NCBI RefSeq assembly: GCF_014203355.1
Contig: NZ_JACHIR010000002.1
Coordinates: 434,001-498,000 of the forward strand
Reading direction: 5' to 3'
From: Kutzneria kofuensis
GTDB taxonomy: Bacteria; Actinomycetota; Actinomycetes; Mycobacteriales; Pseudonocardiaceae
Length of the DNA stretch: 64,000 nt
Under the pieces are notes generated by a model, which saw only the letters and a list, made by a program, of their open reading frames with translations, was not told the origin of the DNA and did no database searches. Positions 4,364-62,793 of this stretch are shown here, in pieces; positions within the stretch are counted from its first letter, which is position 1, and every line of letters begins with the position of its first letter. The position numbers and the translations under genes were made by a program.

Positions 4364-4585
4364 GAGTTCAACACCCCATCGCTTCCTACATTTGTGGCGC
4401 CGCTCACCTTAGGGTTCGACAGTTTCAAGGGGGAAGCACTTGGGCTAATGCGTTCGCCGGACGGTAGGAACATCGGGTAGATCATAACGCTGCGCAGCCA
4501 TCCGGCCGCACGCCGACACATCGGGTCACGACTTCACCTGCAAGTTGACGGCCGCAAGTTGACGCCGTGAACGTTCACAGCGAAT

Positions 4586-4617
4586 GCGGCGGCGGGCTCG
4601 ACCGAACCCGCCGCCGC
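4586..4617 (-). terminator. Hairpin downstream of hupB
   Basis: An 11-bp perfect GC stem (arms 4586-4596 and 4607-4617) with a 10-nt loop, placed just past the hupB stop codon. It has no clear U-tract, as is usual for high-GC terminators. Between it and the GGDEF gene start there is only a tandem GCAAGTTGACG direct repeat (4540-4550 and 4554-4564) of unknown role. Confidence 0.6.
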
Positions 4618-4635
4618 AGCGTCAACTTACCGAGA

Positions 4636-5358: not shown

Positions 5359-5430
5359 CACTCCTTCGAGGGACTGTCCGAAGTGGATTCGCCACTGCCG
5401 GTCGGGGTGTGGTCGGCGGCGTCGGAGGGT

Positions 5431-5481
5431 GCACGTGAGTGGCTCACTTGGCCGCGGAAGCCAAGTGAGCCACTCACGTGC
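5431..5481 (-). terminator. Perfect 22-bp inverted repeat after the NCS1 permease gene
   Basis: Arms 5431-5452 and 5460-5481 are perfectly complementary over 22 bp with a 7-nt loop, starting 15 bases past the permease stop. Position and stability fit a terminator. The arm contains GAGCCACTCACGTG, the same core as the seven-copy array at 31991-32185, so this is a member of a dispersed repeat family. Confidence 0.65.
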
Positions 5482-5495
5482 AAGGGGCTGAAGCG

Positions 5496-6950
5496 TCAGG
5501 CGTCGGGGTCGAGACCGGCGTCGGCGACGGCGACACGCTCACGTTCGGCGGTGAGGTCGAGGGACCGGCACAGCAGGAGGTAGAGGCCGGCGGCGACGAG
5601 CAGGCCGATGGGCATGGAGATGTCGGCGCCGCCCAACAGCTTCGCCACCGGGCCCTGCACCTCGCCGACGATGGCGAACGGCATCATGGACGCGAAGCCG
5701 ACGGCGTAGGCGACCAGGCCACGCCAGCTCCACCGGCGGTAGATGCCGTGCGGGTTGAAGATCTCCCGGATCGAGTAGTGGCCCCGCCGGACGACGTAGA
5801 AGTCGACGAGGTTGATGGCGGTCCACGGGGTGAACAGGTAGCCGAGCACGGTGAGGAAGTACTCGAAGTCCTCCAGGAACGTGTCGTTGGAGGCGAAGGC
5901 GATGGCGGTGGCCAGCACGCCGACGACGACCAGGGCGTAGACCCGCTTGACCGGAGTGGGCCGGAACCGCTTCAGGGAGTCCACGCAGGACAGCAGGGTG
6001 AGGCTGCCGCCGTAGAAGTTCAGCGTGCCGATGGTGATCAGGGGCAGGACGGAGCCGATCAGCAGCGTCAGGCCGAAACCGGGAAACACCTTGTCCCCGG
6101 CGGACAACACGGCGTCGACGGTGTCGGCCTTGGGGAACAGGCCGGCGGCGAAGGTGCCGACGAGCATCATCCACGCGCCGCCGACGCCGGCGCCGAGATA
6201 GGTCCACCAGAACGAGGACCGGACGCCGACGTCGCGCGGCAGGTAGCGGGAGTAGTCGGAGACGTAGATCGACCACGACAGCTGGTACACGGCGGCGGTG
6301 AAGAACTGCACCAGGAACGGGGTCAGCGCGAACGCGCCGAGGTCCAGCTGCTCGGCGCTGAACGGGTGCGCGGCCAGCAGCCCGACGGTGAACACGATCA
6401 GCAGCGCCAGCATCAGGTACGTCAGCCAGCGCGAGGCCTTGTGGATGAAGTCGTAGCCGACGACGGCCAGCACCACGCTGATCACGGCGTAGCCGATGTA
6501 GCTGACGGGTTTCGGCAGGTCCACGAGATGCTGCATGGTGCTGCCGACCAGGATCTGGTTGAAGCCGGTGTACCCGATGTAGGTCACGAGGGCGACGACC
6601 CACACCAGCAGGGCGCCGACGAAGCCGAACTGGGGCCGGGACTGCACCATCTGCGGCAGCCCCAGCTGCGGCCCCTGGGTGGAGTGGAACGCCATGAAGA
6701 ACGTGCCGAACGCGTTGCCCAGCACGACCGCGATCGCGGTCCAGATCAGGTTCCCGCCGAGCGCGACGCCGATGATGCCGGTGGCGATGGTGGCGAGGTG
6801 GGCGTCCCCCGCGAACCACACGGGGAACAGGTGCCACACCTTGCCGTGGCGTTCGGCGATGGGCACGTAGTCGATGGACCGGGCTTCGATGCCCAGCGCG
6901 GGCCGGTGCGGTTGGTCGTCACGGACGATGGTGGGTGGATTGGCCGCCAT
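5496..6950 (-). CDS. NCS1-family nucleobase:cation symporter (purine/cytosine permease type)
   Basis: An integral membrane transporter of 484 residues with about twelve hydrophobic segments, the usual size for the CodB/FCY2 class that imports cytosine, purines, hydantoins or related ring compounds with a cation. It opens with a short hydrophilic arm, then the HLFPVWFAGD region entering the first membrane helix and GNAFGTFFMAFHSTQGPQLGLPQ, typical of the first helices of NCS1 proteins. SIYVSDYSRYLP and PWTAINLVDFY also match family positions. No deaminase or catabolic gene sits beside it, so the substrate is open. Its start is 67 bases past the enoyl-CoA hydratase stop, so it could be a distal member of that operon. 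Confidence 0.9.
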   Translation of the reverse strand: MAANPPTIVRDDQPHRPALGIEARSIDYVPIAERHGKVWHLFPVWFAGDAHLATIATGIIGVALGGNLIWTAIAVVLGNAFGTFFMAFHSTQGPQLGLPQMVQSRPQFGFVGALLVWVVALVTYIGYTGFNQILVGSTMQHLVDLPKPVSYIGYAVISVVLAVVGYDFIHKASRWLTYLMLALLIVFTVGLLAAHPFSAEQLDLGAFALTPFLVQFFTAAVYQLSWSIYVSDYSRYLPRDVGVRSSFWWTYLGAGVGGAWMMLVGTFAAGLFPKADTVDAVLSAGDKVFPGFGLTLLIGSVLPLITIGTLNFYGGSLTLLSCVDSLKRFRPTPVKRVYALVVVGVLATAIAFASNDTFLEDFEYFLTVLGYLFTPWTAINLVDFYVVRRGHYSIREIFNPHGIYRRWSWRGLVAYAVGFASMMPFAIVGEVQGPVAKLLGGADISMPIGLLVAAGLYLLLCRSLDLTAERERVAVADAGLDPDA

Positions 6951-8926: not shown

Positions 8927-10966
8927 TCAGCGTCCGACGAGCACGATCCTGGCGTCCAGGCCGAGGCAGCCGCTCGGCGTCGCCAGCAGTGGGTTGACTT
9001 CGAGTTCGGCGATCTCGGGATGGGCCGCGCCGATCCGGCTGATCGTCGCGACCGCACGGGCGGTTGCGGTGAGGTCGACGGGGTGGCGGCCCCGGGCGCC
9101 GTGCAGCAACGGGGCCGCTTTCAGGGTGCGGAGCATGGTCTCGGCCTCGGCCGGTGTCACGGGGGCCAGCGCGAAGGTGACGTCTTTGAGGATCTCGGTG
9201 AAGACGCCGCCGAGCCCGACCATGAGCACGGGCCCGAACCGGAGATCCCGGCGCACGCCGACGATGAGCTCCACTCCCCCGGCGGTGTCGGCCATCGCCT
9301 CGACGCAGTACTCGGACACGGCCAGCCGAGCGACCATGTCCTCGTGCGCAGCGGACAGCGAGTCCGCATCGGACAGTCCGATCGCGACTCCGCCGGCGTC
9401 GGACTTGTGCAGCAGGCCCATCGCCTTCAGCACGACGGGATAGCCGATCTCCTCCGCCGCCGCGACCACGTCGGTGGCCAGCCGCGCCTCGGGGAAGGCC
9501 AGGCCGCCGGCCTTCAACAGTTCCCGGGCGTGCCAGTAGTCGCTGTGCCGCACCGGGTCGGCGGCCTCCGGCAGCTGCGGGACGGATGGGTGCCGGTCGG
9601 CGTGGTCGGCCAGCATGCCGAGGGTGCGCGCGGCGTCGTCGACGACCCGGAACACGCCGATGCCGTGCCGGCGCAGCTCGTCGGCGGCCGCGCTGTCGCT
9701 GCACATCGTGTGCAGGGCAAGGGGTTTGCCGTGTCGGTGCACGTGTTCGGCGATCACGGTGGCGGTGGCGATCTCACGGGCGGCCAGTTCGGGGCCGTAC
9801 TCGCCGTAGCCGCCGAAGTAGCCGGTGACCAGCACGGAGTCGATGTCGGAATCGGACAGCACCCGGTCGATCGTGCGGGCGAACGAGGCGATGTCCTGCT
9901 CGCCGGCCCCGGCCAGGTCGACCGGGTTGGCCACGCCCGCGGACGGCGGCAGGTCGGCCTTGAGCGCGGCCACCAGTGAGGGCCGAAATTCCTCCACGGC
10001 AAGGCCGTTCGCGTCGGCGATGTCGCTGGCCGTGGACGCGTGCCCGCCGCCGTCGGCGATCACTGCCACCCGCCGCGCCGGCTTCGAGCCGTGCCGGTGC
10101 AGCGCGGCGACCAGGTCGGCCATCTCCCGGGGACTGCGTACCCGGTCCACGCCCGCGGCCCGACAGGCGGCGTCGATCACCGCGCTGTCGCTGGTCAACG
10201 CGCCGGTGTGGGAGCGGGCGGCGCGGTTGGCGGCGGTACTGCTGCCCACCGTCAGCAGCACAACCGGTTTGCCCGCGGCGACGGCCTCGCCGGCCGCCGC
10301 GACGAACGCGCGGCCGTCCTGGAAGTCCTCGCAGTACGCCGCGATGACCTCGGTCCCCGGATGCTCGGCGTAGGCGCGGATCAGGTCGGCGGCGCAGAGG
10401 TCGGCCTGGTTGCCGAGCGAGGCGAACCGGGAGAAGCCCAGACCGCGGTCGGCGAGGAACCGGCTCAGCTCCAACGCCATGTTGCCGCTCTGCGACACCA
10501 GCCCGACCGGCCCGCACGGCAACGGATTCGACACCAGGAACAGGTCGCTGGTGGTGTCCAGCACGCCGAGGCAGTTCGGGCCGAGCAGCACCGCCCCGGC
10601 GGCGCGAATCTTCCGCGCCACGGCGATCTGCGCCGCCCGCCCCTCGTCGCCGAGCTCCGCGAAGCCGGACGTGATGCCGACGATCGCCGTCGCGCCGGCG
10701 GCCAGCGAGTCGTCGACCGCGGCCTCGAAGCCGGCGGCCGGCACGGTGATCACCACGAGGTCGACGGGCTGCTGGATGTCAGCCATGCTGCGGTAGGTGG
10801 GCTGGCCCAGAACGGGCTCGCCGCGGCGGTTGACCAGGTACACCGGCCGGCGGTCGCGCATCCGCAGCGCCTGCACGCTGATCCAGTTGCCGTACTTGGT
10901 CTCGTCGTTGCTGGCGCCGAGGATCGCCACCGATCGTGGCGTGAACAGCGTGTCCAGGCTCCTCAC
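8927..10966 (-). CDS. NDP-forming acyl-CoA synthetase (CoA-binding plus ATP-grasp)
   Basis: A 679-residue single-chain ADP-forming acyl-CoA synthetase. It begins with a CoA-binding Rossmann domain (FTPRSVAILGASNDETKYGN), followed by a succinyl-CoA-ligase-like section with LGPNCLGVLD, SQSGNMALELSR and the phosphohistidine-type segment SHTGALTSD. An ATP-grasp domain covers about the last 210 residues (GYPVVLKAMGLLHKSDAGGV, and ELEVNPLL at the end). It would activate a carboxylic acid to its CoA ester using ATP to ADP. The GTG start overlaps the SDR stop by four bases, tying it into the TetR-controlled operon. The alternative reading as a protein acetyltransferase fusion is excluded because no GNAT domain is present. 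Confidence 0.92.
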   Translation of the reverse strand: MRSLDTLFTPRSVAILGASNDETKYGNWISVQALRMRDRRPVYLVNRRGEPVLGQPTYRSMADIQQPVDLVVITVPAAGFEAAVDDSLAAGATAIVGITSGFAELGDEGRAAQIAVARKIRAAGAVLLGPNCLGVLDTTSDLFLVSNPLPCGPVGLVSQSGNMALELSRFLADRGLGFSRFASLGNQADLCAADLIRAYAEHPGTEVIAAYCEDFQDGRAFVAAAGEAVAAGKPVVLLTVGSSTAANRAARSHTGALTSDSAVIDAACRAAGVDRVRSPREMADLVAALHRHGSKPARRVAVIADGGGHASTASDIADANGLAVEEFRPSLVAALKADLPPSAGVANPVDLAGAGEQDIASFARTIDRVLSDSDIDSVLVTGYFGGYGEYGPELAAREIATATVIAEHVHRHGKPLALHTMCSDSAAADELRRHGIGVFRVVDDAARTLGMLADHADRHPSVPQLPEAADPVRHSDYWHARELLKAGGLAFPEARLATDVVAAAEEIGYPVVLKAMGLLHKSDAGGVAIGLSDADSLSAAHEDMVARLAVSEYCVEAMADTAGGVELIVGVRRDLRFGPVLMVGLGGVFTEILKDVTFALAPVTPAEAETMLRTLKAAPLLHGARGRHPVDLTATARAVATISRIGAAHPEIAELEVNPLLATPSGCLGLDARIVLVGR

Positions 10967-12466: not shown

Positions 12467-12501
12467 CCGAGGGCGGCGGCACGCCCCGCCGCCGCCCTCG
12501 G
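12467..12501. terminator. Bidirectional terminator between converging genes
   Basis: Perfect 14-bp GC stem (12467-12480 with 12488-12501) and a 7-nt loop, filling the 43-base gap between the TetR gene and the oppositely oriented membrane protein gene. Confidence 0.75.
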
Positions 12502-13012: not shown

Positions 13013-13050
13013 GCGCCCCTGGCCGGCCGGAGAGAACCGGCCAGGGGCGC
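13013..13050 (-). terminator. Terminator of the phosphoesterase operon
   Basis: Perfect 14-bp stem (13013-13026 with 13037-13050), 10-nt loop, 12 bases past the stop of the phosphoesterase gene on the minus strand. Confidence 0.75.
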
Positions 13051-31537: not shown

Positions 31538-31990
31538 ATGATGGAGGTCAGCAGGACGGTCGAGGTGTCCCCGGAGCACGTGTTCGCCGTGCTCGCCGAC
31601 GGCTGGTCCTACGCCGGGTGGGTGGTCGGCAACTCCCACATCCGGGAGGTCGACCCGGAGTGGCCCGCGGCGGGCACGCGGATCCACCACAGCGCGGGGC
31701 TGTGGCCGCTGCAGTTCAACGACTGGACCGAGGTCACCGCGGTGGCGCCGGACCGGATGATCGAGCTGCGGGCCCGGCTGTGGCCGTTCGGGGTGGCGAG
31801 GATCCGCTTCGACCTGACGCCCACGGCGAACGGCACCCGGATCGTCATGGGCGAGCAGGCCACCGAGGGGCCGGCCGCGCTGATGCCGACCGCAGTGCAG
31901 GCCGTGTTGCTGCGCCCACGCAACCGGGAAGCCCTGTCTCGGCTGGCCGACCTCGCCGGGGGCCGCGCCCGCTCCCAGCAAGCCAAATGA
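31538..31990 (+). CDS. SRPBCC-family (polyketide cyclase/dehydrase-like) protein
   Basis: A 150-residue START/SRPBCC protein: VSRTVEVSPEHVFAVLADG opening, then GWVVGNSHIREVDPEWP, WTEVTAVAPDRMIEL and a C-terminal helix with MPTAVQAVLLRPRNREALSRLA. The fold makes a hydrophobic pocket for lipids or polyketides; no catalytic role can be assigned. Two adjacent ATG codons are possible starts. It ends one base before a tandem repeat array. Confidence 0.85.
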   Translation: MMEVSRTVEVSPEHVFAVLADGWSYAGWVVGNSHIREVDPEWPAAGTRIHHSAGLWPLQFNDWTEVTAVAPDRMIELRARLWPFGVARIRFDLTPTANGTRIVMGEQATEGPAALMPTAVQAVLLRPRNREALSRLADLAGGRARSQQAK

Positions 31991-32185
31991 GCCACTCACG
32001 TGGCCCCGAGAGCCACCTGAGCCACTCACGTAGGCCCGAACGCCACCTAAGCCACTCACGTGCTCCCCAAACCAAGCGAGCCACTCACGTGCCCCCCGAA
32101 AGCCACCTAAGCCACTCACGTGCCCCCTGAAAGCCACCTGAGCCACTCACGTGCGCCCCAAAAGCCAACTGAGCCACTCACGTGG
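31991..32185. repeat. Seven direct copies of a 30-bp repeat between convergent genes
   Basis: The core GCCACTCACGT starts at 31991, 32021, 32051, 32080, 32111, 32142 and 32172, a period of 29-31 bp. Between cores lies a looser C-rich, A-rich, then AGCCACCTGA segment. All copies have the same orientation, unlike the inverted pair at 5431-5481 that shares the core. The array fills the space between two converging genes. There is no coding signal; the Leu-Trp/His-Val-Ser-Gly-rich frame on the opposite strand is only the repeat translated. Confidence 0.9.
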
Positions 32186-32212: not shown

Positions 32213-33802
32213 TCAGCCGTAGATGAGGCGGTGGGCCGCGTTGATCGTGGCCTGGTAGCCGCCGCCGGCCCACCCGTTCCGGGCCAGCGCCGCCCGCGCG
32301 GCGTTGCTGCCGGGGCCGCCGTGCACGGCACCGCCGGGATGGGCGGAGGCGCTGGCCAGGAACAGCCGCTGCACGGGAGTGTCGGCCCGGGCCAGGCCAG
32401 GCACCGGACGGAGGAACAACTCCTGGTGTATCGCCGAGGTTCCGCCGTTGATCGCACCGTCGACCAGGCTCGGGTTGTGCCCCTGCAGATCGCCCGGCCC
32501 CTGCACGGCCCGGCCGACGACCAGCGAGGAGAAACCGGGGGCGTGTCGCTCGACGACACGCTCGATCCGGTCGGCGGCCCGCGCCAGCTTGGCGTTGTCC
32601 CAACGCTGTCCGTGCGGCACATGCGTGTACGCCCAAACGGCTTCCGTGCCGGCCGGGGAACGTGACGGGTCGGCGGTGGTCATCTGGCCCAGCAACAGGA
32701 ACGGGTCACGGGGCGTACGCCCCCGCGCGAGGTCCACGGTGAAGGCCGACAAGCCGTCCATGTCCGCGCTGAGGTGCACGGTGCCCGCGCCGCGAACCTG
32801 CTCCGCGATCCACGGCACCGGCCCGGACAGCGCCCAGTCCACCTTGACGGTCGCGGGATCCCAGTGGAACCGCGACAGGTCGTCGACGAGCCGGGCCGGC
32901 AGATGCTCGGCGCCGACGAGGTCGAGATAGAGCGCGGGCGCGGGCACATCGGCCAGCACGGCGCGACGGGCCCGCACCGGCTGGCCCTCCGCGTCCCGCA
33001 CGCCGACCGCCTGTCCACTCGCGACGAGAATCTTGTCGACCCGGCGGCCACACACGACTTTGCCGCCACGTGAGGTCAGCCGGCGCACGAGTGCCGCGGT
33101 GATCTGCCCGGCGCCGCCCTCGGGCACCGGAAACCCGACGTCCTGGCCCAGCATCGCCAGCAGCCAACCGAAAACACCGCTGCCGGCGTTGTCGACGCCG
33201 ACGTCGGCGTGCATCGCGTTGCCGGCCAGCAACAACCGGGCGCCCTCCCCCGCGAACCACTCGTCGGTGAAGGTGCGCGCGGACAACGTCACCATCCGGG
33301 CGAGGCGAAGGCCCTCGGCGGTGCCGACCCGGCGCAGCAGGCGCATACCGGCGCGGACGGGCGGGAAGGGTCGGAACAGCGCGTCCAGGAACGGATCCCG
33401 CAGCCGGCTCCACTGGTCGTACATGCGACGCCAGGCGTCGCCGTCCTCGGCGGCGAACTCGGACACCGATCGCGCGGTCCGGTCGAGGTCCCGGGACAGC
33501 ACCACGCTGCGGTCGTCCGGCAGGACGTGGGCCACGACCTCGGGCGCGTGCCGCCACTTCAGGCCGTAACGCCCCAGGTCGAGGCCGGCGAACACGGGCG
33601 AGGCGGCGGTCATGGGGAAGAAGGCGCTGCACAGGTCGCTGTGGAACTCCGGCGCCGCGAGTTCCTCGGTGCGCACGGCCCCGCCGGGTCGGTCGGCGGC
33701 CTCCAGGACGAGGACCTGCCATCCGGCGTCCGCCAGCAGGTTCGCAGCGACCAACCCGTTGTGGCCGGCACCGACGACCACGGCGTCCGCGGACTCCGTC
33801 AT
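32213..33802 (-). CDS. Phytoene-desaturase-like FAD-dependent oxidoreductase
   Basis: A 529-residue flavoprotein of the carotenoid-desaturase/amine-oxidase superfamily. The N-terminal nucleotide-binding motif is VVVGAGHNGLVAANLLADAGW ending in VLVLEAADRPGGAVRTEE, with conserved FAD-contact segments later and the C-terminal GAVHGGPGSNAARAAL. There are no carotenoid genes near, so the substrate is open; many actinobacterial members are retinol-saturase-like or unknown. It converges on the SRPBCC gene across the repeat array. Confidence 0.88.
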   Translation of the reverse strand: MTESADAVVVGAGHNGLVAANLLADAGWQVLVLEAADRPGGAVRTEELAAPEFHSDLCSAFFPMTAASPVFAGLDLGRYGLKWRHAPEVVAHVLPDDRSVVLSRDLDRTARSVSEFAAEDGDAWRRMYDQWSRLRDPFLDALFRPFPPVRAGMRLLRRVGTAEGLRLARMVTLSARTFTDEWFAGEGARLLLAGNAMHADVGVDNAGSGVFGWLLAMLGQDVGFPVPEGGAGQITAALVRRLTSRGGKVVCGRRVDKILVASGQAVGVRDAEGQPVRARRAVLADVPAPALYLDLVGAEHLPARLVDDLSRFHWDPATVKVDWALSGPVPWIAEQVRGAGTVHLSADMDGLSAFTVDLARGRTPRDPFLLLGQMTTADPSRSPAGTEAVWAYTHVPHGQRWDNAKLARAADRIERVVERHAPGFSSLVVGRAVQGPGDLQGHNPSLVDGAINGGTSAIHQELFLRPVPGLARADTPVQRLFLASASAHPGGAVHGGPGSNAARAALARNGWAGGGYQATINAAHRLIYG

Positions 33803-45321: not shown

Positions 45322-45330
45322 ACCGACATC

Positions 45331-45356
45331 ATGCCCCCTGCCATCGCAGGGGGCAT
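45331..45356 (-). terminator. Hairpin between the alcohol dehydrogenase and STAS genes
   Basis: Perfect 11-bp stem ATGCCCCCTGC/GCAGGGGGCAT with a 4-nt loop, 64 bases after the alcohol dehydrogenase stop and 10 bases before the STAS GTG. It is probably a terminator, but it also buries the only purine-rich stretch that could bind ribosomes for the STAS gene. Confidence 0.65.
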
Positions 45357-45419
45357 GCGCAGCGTGCACCACCGATGCGAGGGTGACCAGCCGGGCGGTG
45401 GTTCAAACCTCCTTTTTCG

Positions 45420-47030: not shown

Positions 47031-47061
47031 GAGCCCTGCCGGCCTGGCGCCGGCAGGGCTC
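47031..47061 (-). terminator. Terminator downstream of hsp18
   Basis: Perfect 12-bp stem (47031-47042 with 47050-47061), 7-nt loop, about 90 bases past the hsp18 stop and 27 bases before the DUF6292 start. Confidence 0.7.
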
Positions 47062-62759: not shown

Positions 62760-62793
62760 GGTGAGGGGCGCCGCCCGATCGGCGCCCCTCACC
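62760..62793. terminator. Bidirectional terminator at the end of the hemerythrin operon
   Basis: Perfect 14-bp stem (62760-62773 with 62780-62793), 6-nt loop. It follows the hemerythrin stop by two bases and overlaps the stop of the converging Nramp gene. Confidence 0.8.

Follow-up and report, generated by a model that had tools for sequence, protein, structure and literature searches.

A palindromic gene-end repeat in Kutzneria kofuensis as a putative U-less mRNA 3'-end hairpin related to repeats across Pseudonocardiaceae

What does a short repeat do when it stands seven times in one direction between two converging genes, and recurs some distance away as a perfect inverted pair behind another gene? 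The question arises from a 64,000-nucleotide stretch of the Kutzneria kofuensis genome, referred to here as the window, for which an earlier note had proposed a terminator, a nucleoid-protein site or a spreading intergenic repeat. Judged from sequence, we consider it reasonably probable that a Pseudonocardiaceae-wide palindromic repeat is present here in its Kutzneria form and that it serves as a hairpin at mRNA 3' ends.

The array at 31989-32184 is a tandem run of seven direct half-units on the forward strand, each with a GAGCCACTCACGTG-type core and no inverted partner, at a period of 29-31 bp. Its cores occupy 31989-32002, 32019-32032, 32049-32062, 32078-32091, 32109-32122, 32140-32153 and 32171-32184, giving successive steps of 30, 30, 29, 31, 31 and 31. 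The 14-mer GAGCCACTCACGTG is exact in four of the seven, one base differs in the second, third and fifth, and the 12-mer AGCCACTCACGT is exact in all. The first unit shares the TGA stop (31988-31990) of a forward-strand Polyketide_cyc2 (SRPBCC-type) gene (31538-31990), and a reverse-strand FAD-dependent amine-oxidoreductase-type gene (32213-33802) converges on the array, 28 nt separating its stop from the array. A window scan for the core with three mismatches yielded 10 matches against 14.4 expected in shuffles and is uninformative on chance. Predicted folding is strong on the reverse strand (-130.7 kcal/mol, z -8.0) and modest on the forward strand (-62, z -1.3), the G/U-rich strand pairing with its own copies. 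The array is most likely a one-sided expansion, in which left arms would have been lost and right arms amplified, with a strong fold only in the transcript of the FAD gene. Through G-U pairs it would fold strongly only as reverse-strand RNA, and it should therefore act mainly for that gene. The orthologous site in a second Kutzneria genome (G002) carries five units, and no core within three mismatches was found at this site in two others (G001 and G003). The G002 ortholog of the Polyketide_cyc2 gene has an apparent internal deletion beside the array (L088, near 9881-10300).

The distant copy, at 5430-5482, is a basic hairpin composed of a perfect inverted repeat of 23 bp around a 7-nt loop, and it contains GTGAGTGGC...GCCACTCAC at 5435-5477. 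It begins about 14 nt past the stop of a reverse-strand cytosine/purine permease gene (Transp_cyt_pur, 5496-6950), and its RNA has a predicted folding energy of -49.3 kcal/mol (z -9.1). Both structures described in the earlier note are thereby confirmed: the seven same-direction cores 29-31 bp apart between two converging genes, with coordinates agreeing within a base or two, and the perfect inverted pair with the array's core after another gene. Six further perfect hairpins in the window, unrelated to the repeat and with arms of 12-14, lie 3-90 nt past a stop codon (62760-62793, 13013-13050, 12467-12501, 47031-47061, 45330-45357 and 4585-4618). Rfam gave no match above the gathering score in the window, and a known RNA family was ruled out there.

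Across the host genome (G000; 10,435,448 bases in 5 contigs), the 12-mer AGCCACTCACGT occurs 134 times, compared with once for its reversed control. Counts of the 14-mer in seven Kutzneria genomes were 88, 42, 11, 8, 4, 0 and 0, and exact hairpins are also present in records of Kutzneria sp. CA-103260 and 744. The host sample consisted of the window and 40 regions, together 46 places holding 124 of the 134 12-mers; the other copies are eight in five listed places outside the sample and two that were unlocated. Most of these places contain an inverted pair ('<>') with a step of 35-36, followed by additional '>' units at about 31. Only the window array (all '>') and L053 (all '<') are purely direct in this sample, and many arrays combine both orientations; direct runs keep to the 31-bp step, other steps ranging from 24 to 49. 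The inverted pair, that is the hairpin, is the basic unit and direct units are expansions of it. The notion of two architectures is accordingly too simple: both forms exist, but the inverted pair underlies the direct runs, and many arrays are mixed. The consensus of 87 Kutzneria hairpins has the GTGAGTG motif at both ends, as do the printed 40-nt forms. Copies of the 9-mer GCCACTCAC numbered 129 inside clusters and 3 outside in the host regions (reversed control 8), 46 inside elements and none outside in G002, and 48 and none in G202, a genome of genus g5. The G000 and G002 counts should not be taken as genome densities, since presence of the element decided which regions entered the sample.

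Among arrays opening with '<' and closing with '>' (38 in G000 and G002 together), similarity between the two outermost arms exceeded that in within-array shuffles, a small effect (25.2 versus 24.0 of 40 positions, p=0.0008) found in each genome alone (G000, p=0.007; G002, p=0.019), and neighbouring arms inside the arrays were unmatched to each other (p=0.99). We read the better match of the outermost arms as growth inside an original hairpin, such that arrays would expand by units added within them. Two near-identical three-hairpin arrays about 1 Mb apart (L045:9382-9564 and L051:9912-10094) have one common flank, which indicates block copying.

Placement relative to genes, called with a custom script, is highly biased in the host. 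The 46 places comprise 21 convergent, 22 tandem and 2 divergent sites and one inside a gene, a lone half-site; 43 are intergenic with an adjoining gene 3' end, and 21 of the 22 tandem sites are closer to the upstream stop than to the next start. Element-free intergenic bases are 9% convergent and 35% divergent, so that 21 convergent and 2 divergent sites among 45 represent an excess (p=6e-11) and a deficit (p=1e-6), respectively. With 134 genomic copies, 43 of 46 places at a 3' end and a single place in a gene, the data support the idea of an intergenic repeat that spreads at gene 3' ends, and the core is far from equally frequent inside genes. Placing is looser in G002, with 13 tandem, 4 convergent and 3 divergent sites (20 of 22 listed places), 11 of 21 gene ends within 30 nt and three distances above 370 nt. 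The 29 hairpins of G202 are 18 convergent, 9 tandem, 1 divergent and 1 'inside', and lie at most 30 nt from 43 of 45 gene ends (median 4). In genus g16 (two genomes, 23 matches, one of them probably chance), 12 are convergent, 8 tandem and 3 divergent, with a hairpin within 30 nt of just 14 of 30 gene ends.

To judge by the shared pattern, the window repeat is the Kutzneria version of a hairpin found across Pseudonocardiaceae, in which GTGAGTGGC arms enclose a lineage-specific, compensating inner stem. The pattern used for searching (GTGAGTGGC, 4-34 any bases, GCCACTCAC) occurred in 76 of 297 Pseudonocardiaceae genomes and 17 of 46 genera, and was absent from 221 genomes; 28 genomes of 7 genera had at least 10 copies, up to 79, and the reversed control never exceeded one. 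Some single GC-rich matches may be chance hairpins. Outside the family, 2 of 207 genomes in an order sample matched, one GC-rich and one with two 40-nt forms, and none of 196 other genomes did in a class sample with a narrower spacer, part of which overlaps the order sample. The two 40-nt forms, in G436 of another family, lie 18 kb apart (C32:196583-196622 and C32:215011-215050) and may reflect transfer or contamination. Among the matches listed, genera g3, g5, g16, g20 and g37 each have a stem body of their own in an element that almost invariably measures 40 nt, examples being GATGCGAGC in g3, GATAGTCGC in g5, GTTTCGGGTT in g16 and TACGCGAGTT in g20. G104 (g46) contains 14 hairpins with the wide spacer and none with the narrow one, so the family element is not always of the 40-nt form. 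Single hairpins were also seen in Actinomycetospora callitridis, with Kutzneria-type outer arms (L032, 3066-3111), and in G188, a 40-nt form with the same core as the Kutzneria type. In open papers, the 9-mer with Amycolatopsis, or its complement with Pseudonocardia, gave no match; the motif alone gave none on these bacteria by title among the matches listed; a search on Amycolatopsis intergenic repeats gave none, and one on repetitive extragenic palindromic sequences gave papers unrelated by title. The element may thus be called undescribed only in the sense that these searches did not find it.

Pairing of the inner stem is preserved while its sequence varies in two other genera. In g5, pairs 8, 10, 12, 13, 15 and 17 are Watson-Crick in 23, 21, 21, 20, 19 and 23 of 24 distinct sequences, compared with shuffle values of 16.6, 15.3, 13.4, 8.8, 12.7 and 14.6, and a like excess appears at pairs 9-15 in 15 distinct sequences of g16, where, at one locus, a compensated pair distinguishes two genomes. 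Because the search pattern prescribes the outer seven pairs, nothing follows from their constancy among g5 and g16 matches; their conservation was seen in the host consensus, with mismatches allowed, and in G202 matches with up to three mismatches. Locus-specific covariation in simple Kutzneria hairpins is weak, both for the inner stem (5.05 versus 4.82 of 8, p=0.16) and for the outer arms (3.67 versus 3.11 of 10, p=0.04). In a comparison bearing on whether pairing is kept at the RNA or the DNA level, G-U was not clearly favoured over A-C on the sense strand of tandem elements (20 versus 12, p=0.22), and the strength of the sense-direction fold did not lean consistently either way among arrays in tandem contexts.

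Comparison between species reveals that the sites are retained and rearranged. For seven host sites, the G002 ortholog has the element too, with flank identity of about 80-96%, and the number or order of units mostly differs. Two sites are not shared: at L069 of G000, the orthologous G002 site has different palindromes instead, and at L092 of G002, the orthologous G000 site lacks the element. At L092:15459-15661, G002 contains two copies of another, gtcaggaagggccccttactgacg-like palindrome where K. kofuensis has an array. One g16 locus presents two stem versions across genomes, a wholly different hairpin in G157 and none in G193; in G126, G089, G110 and G021, further palindromes interrupt the hairpin at its tip or close by. 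Such swaps, absences and other hairpins at orthologous sites indicate that the slot is kept and its filling changes. In g16 genomes (L139, L140, L143 and L147), other palindromic repeat families, resembling tgaaggaggccttcacg and gcgaaagtggctttcgc, were found embedded in the GTGAGTGGC hairpin, at its tip or close to it.

The proposal of a terminator stands only for a U-less 3'-end hairpin. At least three U in the next 8 nt were found at 6 of 160 gene ends overall and at 2 of 64 element-adjoining ends in the host; since no U-rich tract directly follows the hairpin, a canonical Rho-independent terminator was rejected. A stable predicted hairpin soon after the stop, without a U-tract, is a feature that the element shares with I-shaped terminators, the stop being less close in G002 and g16. 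In the cited passages of PMC12288462, U-less terminators of this type, GC-rich hairpins within about 50 nt of the stop, are described in mycobacteria, work requiring a U-tract is also cited, and whether related RNA polymerases need a U-tract is a matter of dispute. They are not presented in those passages as one repeated sequence family, whereas in the element the arm base is fixed and the stem body differs from lineage to lineage. The highly structured 'HS-U-lack' 3' ends of Streptomyces are likewise U-less and, in the part of PMC8269248 concerned, are regarded as such terminators or as trimmed ends of Rho-terminated RNA. Hairpin-cluster terminators, as outlined in the relevant section of PMC8355165, consist of several hairpins after one stop codon that act jointly; clusters of the element differ in being copies of one unit, nested inside the outermost arms.

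The element is most likely a U-less, bidirectional mRNA 3'-end hairpin that would multiply as a REP-like repeat. Its base form would be a single GTGAGTGGC...GCCACTCAC inverted pair located immediately past a stop codon, in untranslated sequence; as the pair often lies between two converging genes, either transcript can fold the hairpin. The folded RNA would halt RNA polymerase without a U-tract (I-shaped termination), block 3'-to-5' exonucleases after Rho termination, or both, and copies would spread by some mechanism needing the fixed arm base. Position after stops, bidirectional pairing and unrelated hairpins in the same slot all point to an RNA 3'-end function. The fixed arm base, in turn, asks for a reader of RNA, DNA or a mobile end, and so unusually constant an end sequence suggests that something specific recognises the hairpin.

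If the reader were a mobilising enzyme acting on the GTGAGTG ends, the element could be a selfish REP- or MITE-like palindrome with no host function, piling up at gene 3' ends because insertions elsewhere are harmful. Fixed ends with a free interior, one stem body per genome that differs between genera, 14-mer copy numbers from 0 to 88 in Kutzneria and differing presence at orthologous sites all fit this view. With regard to MITEs, the element is palindromic throughout, and none of the loci compared presented a clean empty site with a duplication. It is also REP-like in the broad sense of a short, extragenic palindrome in many copies: REP and BIME sequences, as treated in the cited portion of PMC3733652, are short, intergenic, palindromic, copied within genomes and found singly, paired or in arrays, and CGTC repeats without a dedicated transposase are mentioned there as well. 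Unlike these, the element has no GTAG or CGTC tag at one palindrome end but the same motif at both (GTGAGTG...CACTCAC), lacks a RAYT partner in Kutzneria and is placed beside stop codons. No match to the Y1 (IS200/IS605-type) transposase PF01797 was obtained in six of the seven Kutzneria genomes, and the single match in the other is fragmentary (33 of 121 positions, 58-aa open frame, 23.8 bits against a cut-off of 23 bits, E 3e-4); a RAYT-driven REP was consequently rejected for Kutzneria, the transposase being practically missing. The missing enzyme, retention between two species at seven Kutzneria sites, and the compensating stems and G202 placement a few nt from stop codons, which suggest use as a hairpin, make a purely selfish element rather unlikely. 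By its sequence features, the element would be REP-like in the broad sense and work like an I-shaped terminator, lacking the REP tag, the transposase and the U-tract.

A DNA site for a nucleoid or regulatory protein reading GTGAGTG, which the earlier note had also raised, would account for an arm base fixed across genera beyond the needs of a plain RNA hairpin and for a 31-bp step near three helical turns. It receives little support and is improbable, as steps vary from 24 to 49 outside direct runs, arm pairing is what is kept, the paired element is confined to gene 3' ends with practically no unpaired copies, and a DNA site needs no inner stem compensation. Hairpin-templated repair is a mechanism known to act on quasi-palindromes, and it could maintain arm pairing neutrally, without selection on RNA, explaining both compensation and hairpin-tip insertions without function and agreeing with G-U not being clearly favoured; it leaves the 3'-end placing and the fixed arm base unexplained, and we regard it as very unlikely. 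Most doubtful of all is a DNA-uptake-like tag doubling as a terminator. Uptake tags are frequent singly and within genes too, whereas just 3 of 132 9-mer copies in the host regions lie outside clusters. The uptake sequences used as terminators in Neisseria and Haemophilus are likewise repeated motifs forming inverted pairs at gene ends, and the gene-end pairs seen here resemble the paired uptake sequences described in the relevant passages of PMC1852404; the element differs in having practically no unpaired copies, and an uptake sequence or Chi-like tag was rejected on this ground.

For the U-less 3'-end hairpin that we favour, one extension is offered tentatively, as possible rather than probable: GTGAGTG/CACTCAC may be the recognition mark of a dedicated Pseudonocardiaceae factor, a protein or RNA system, that either terminates transcription in the absence of a U-tract or places copies of the palindrome at gene 3' ends. 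A mobile repeat would then have been turned into a family-wide supply of terminators, with new palindromes added at hairpin tips. The repeat family multiplies at precisely the positions expected of terminators, and does so without a transposase of the kind that serves REPs. With it, the antibiotic-rich Pseudonocardiaceae offer a defined collection of gene-end hairpins that lack a U-tract and have one motif in common. Mutating this one motif could test the disputed U-less ending of transcripts in actinobacteria.
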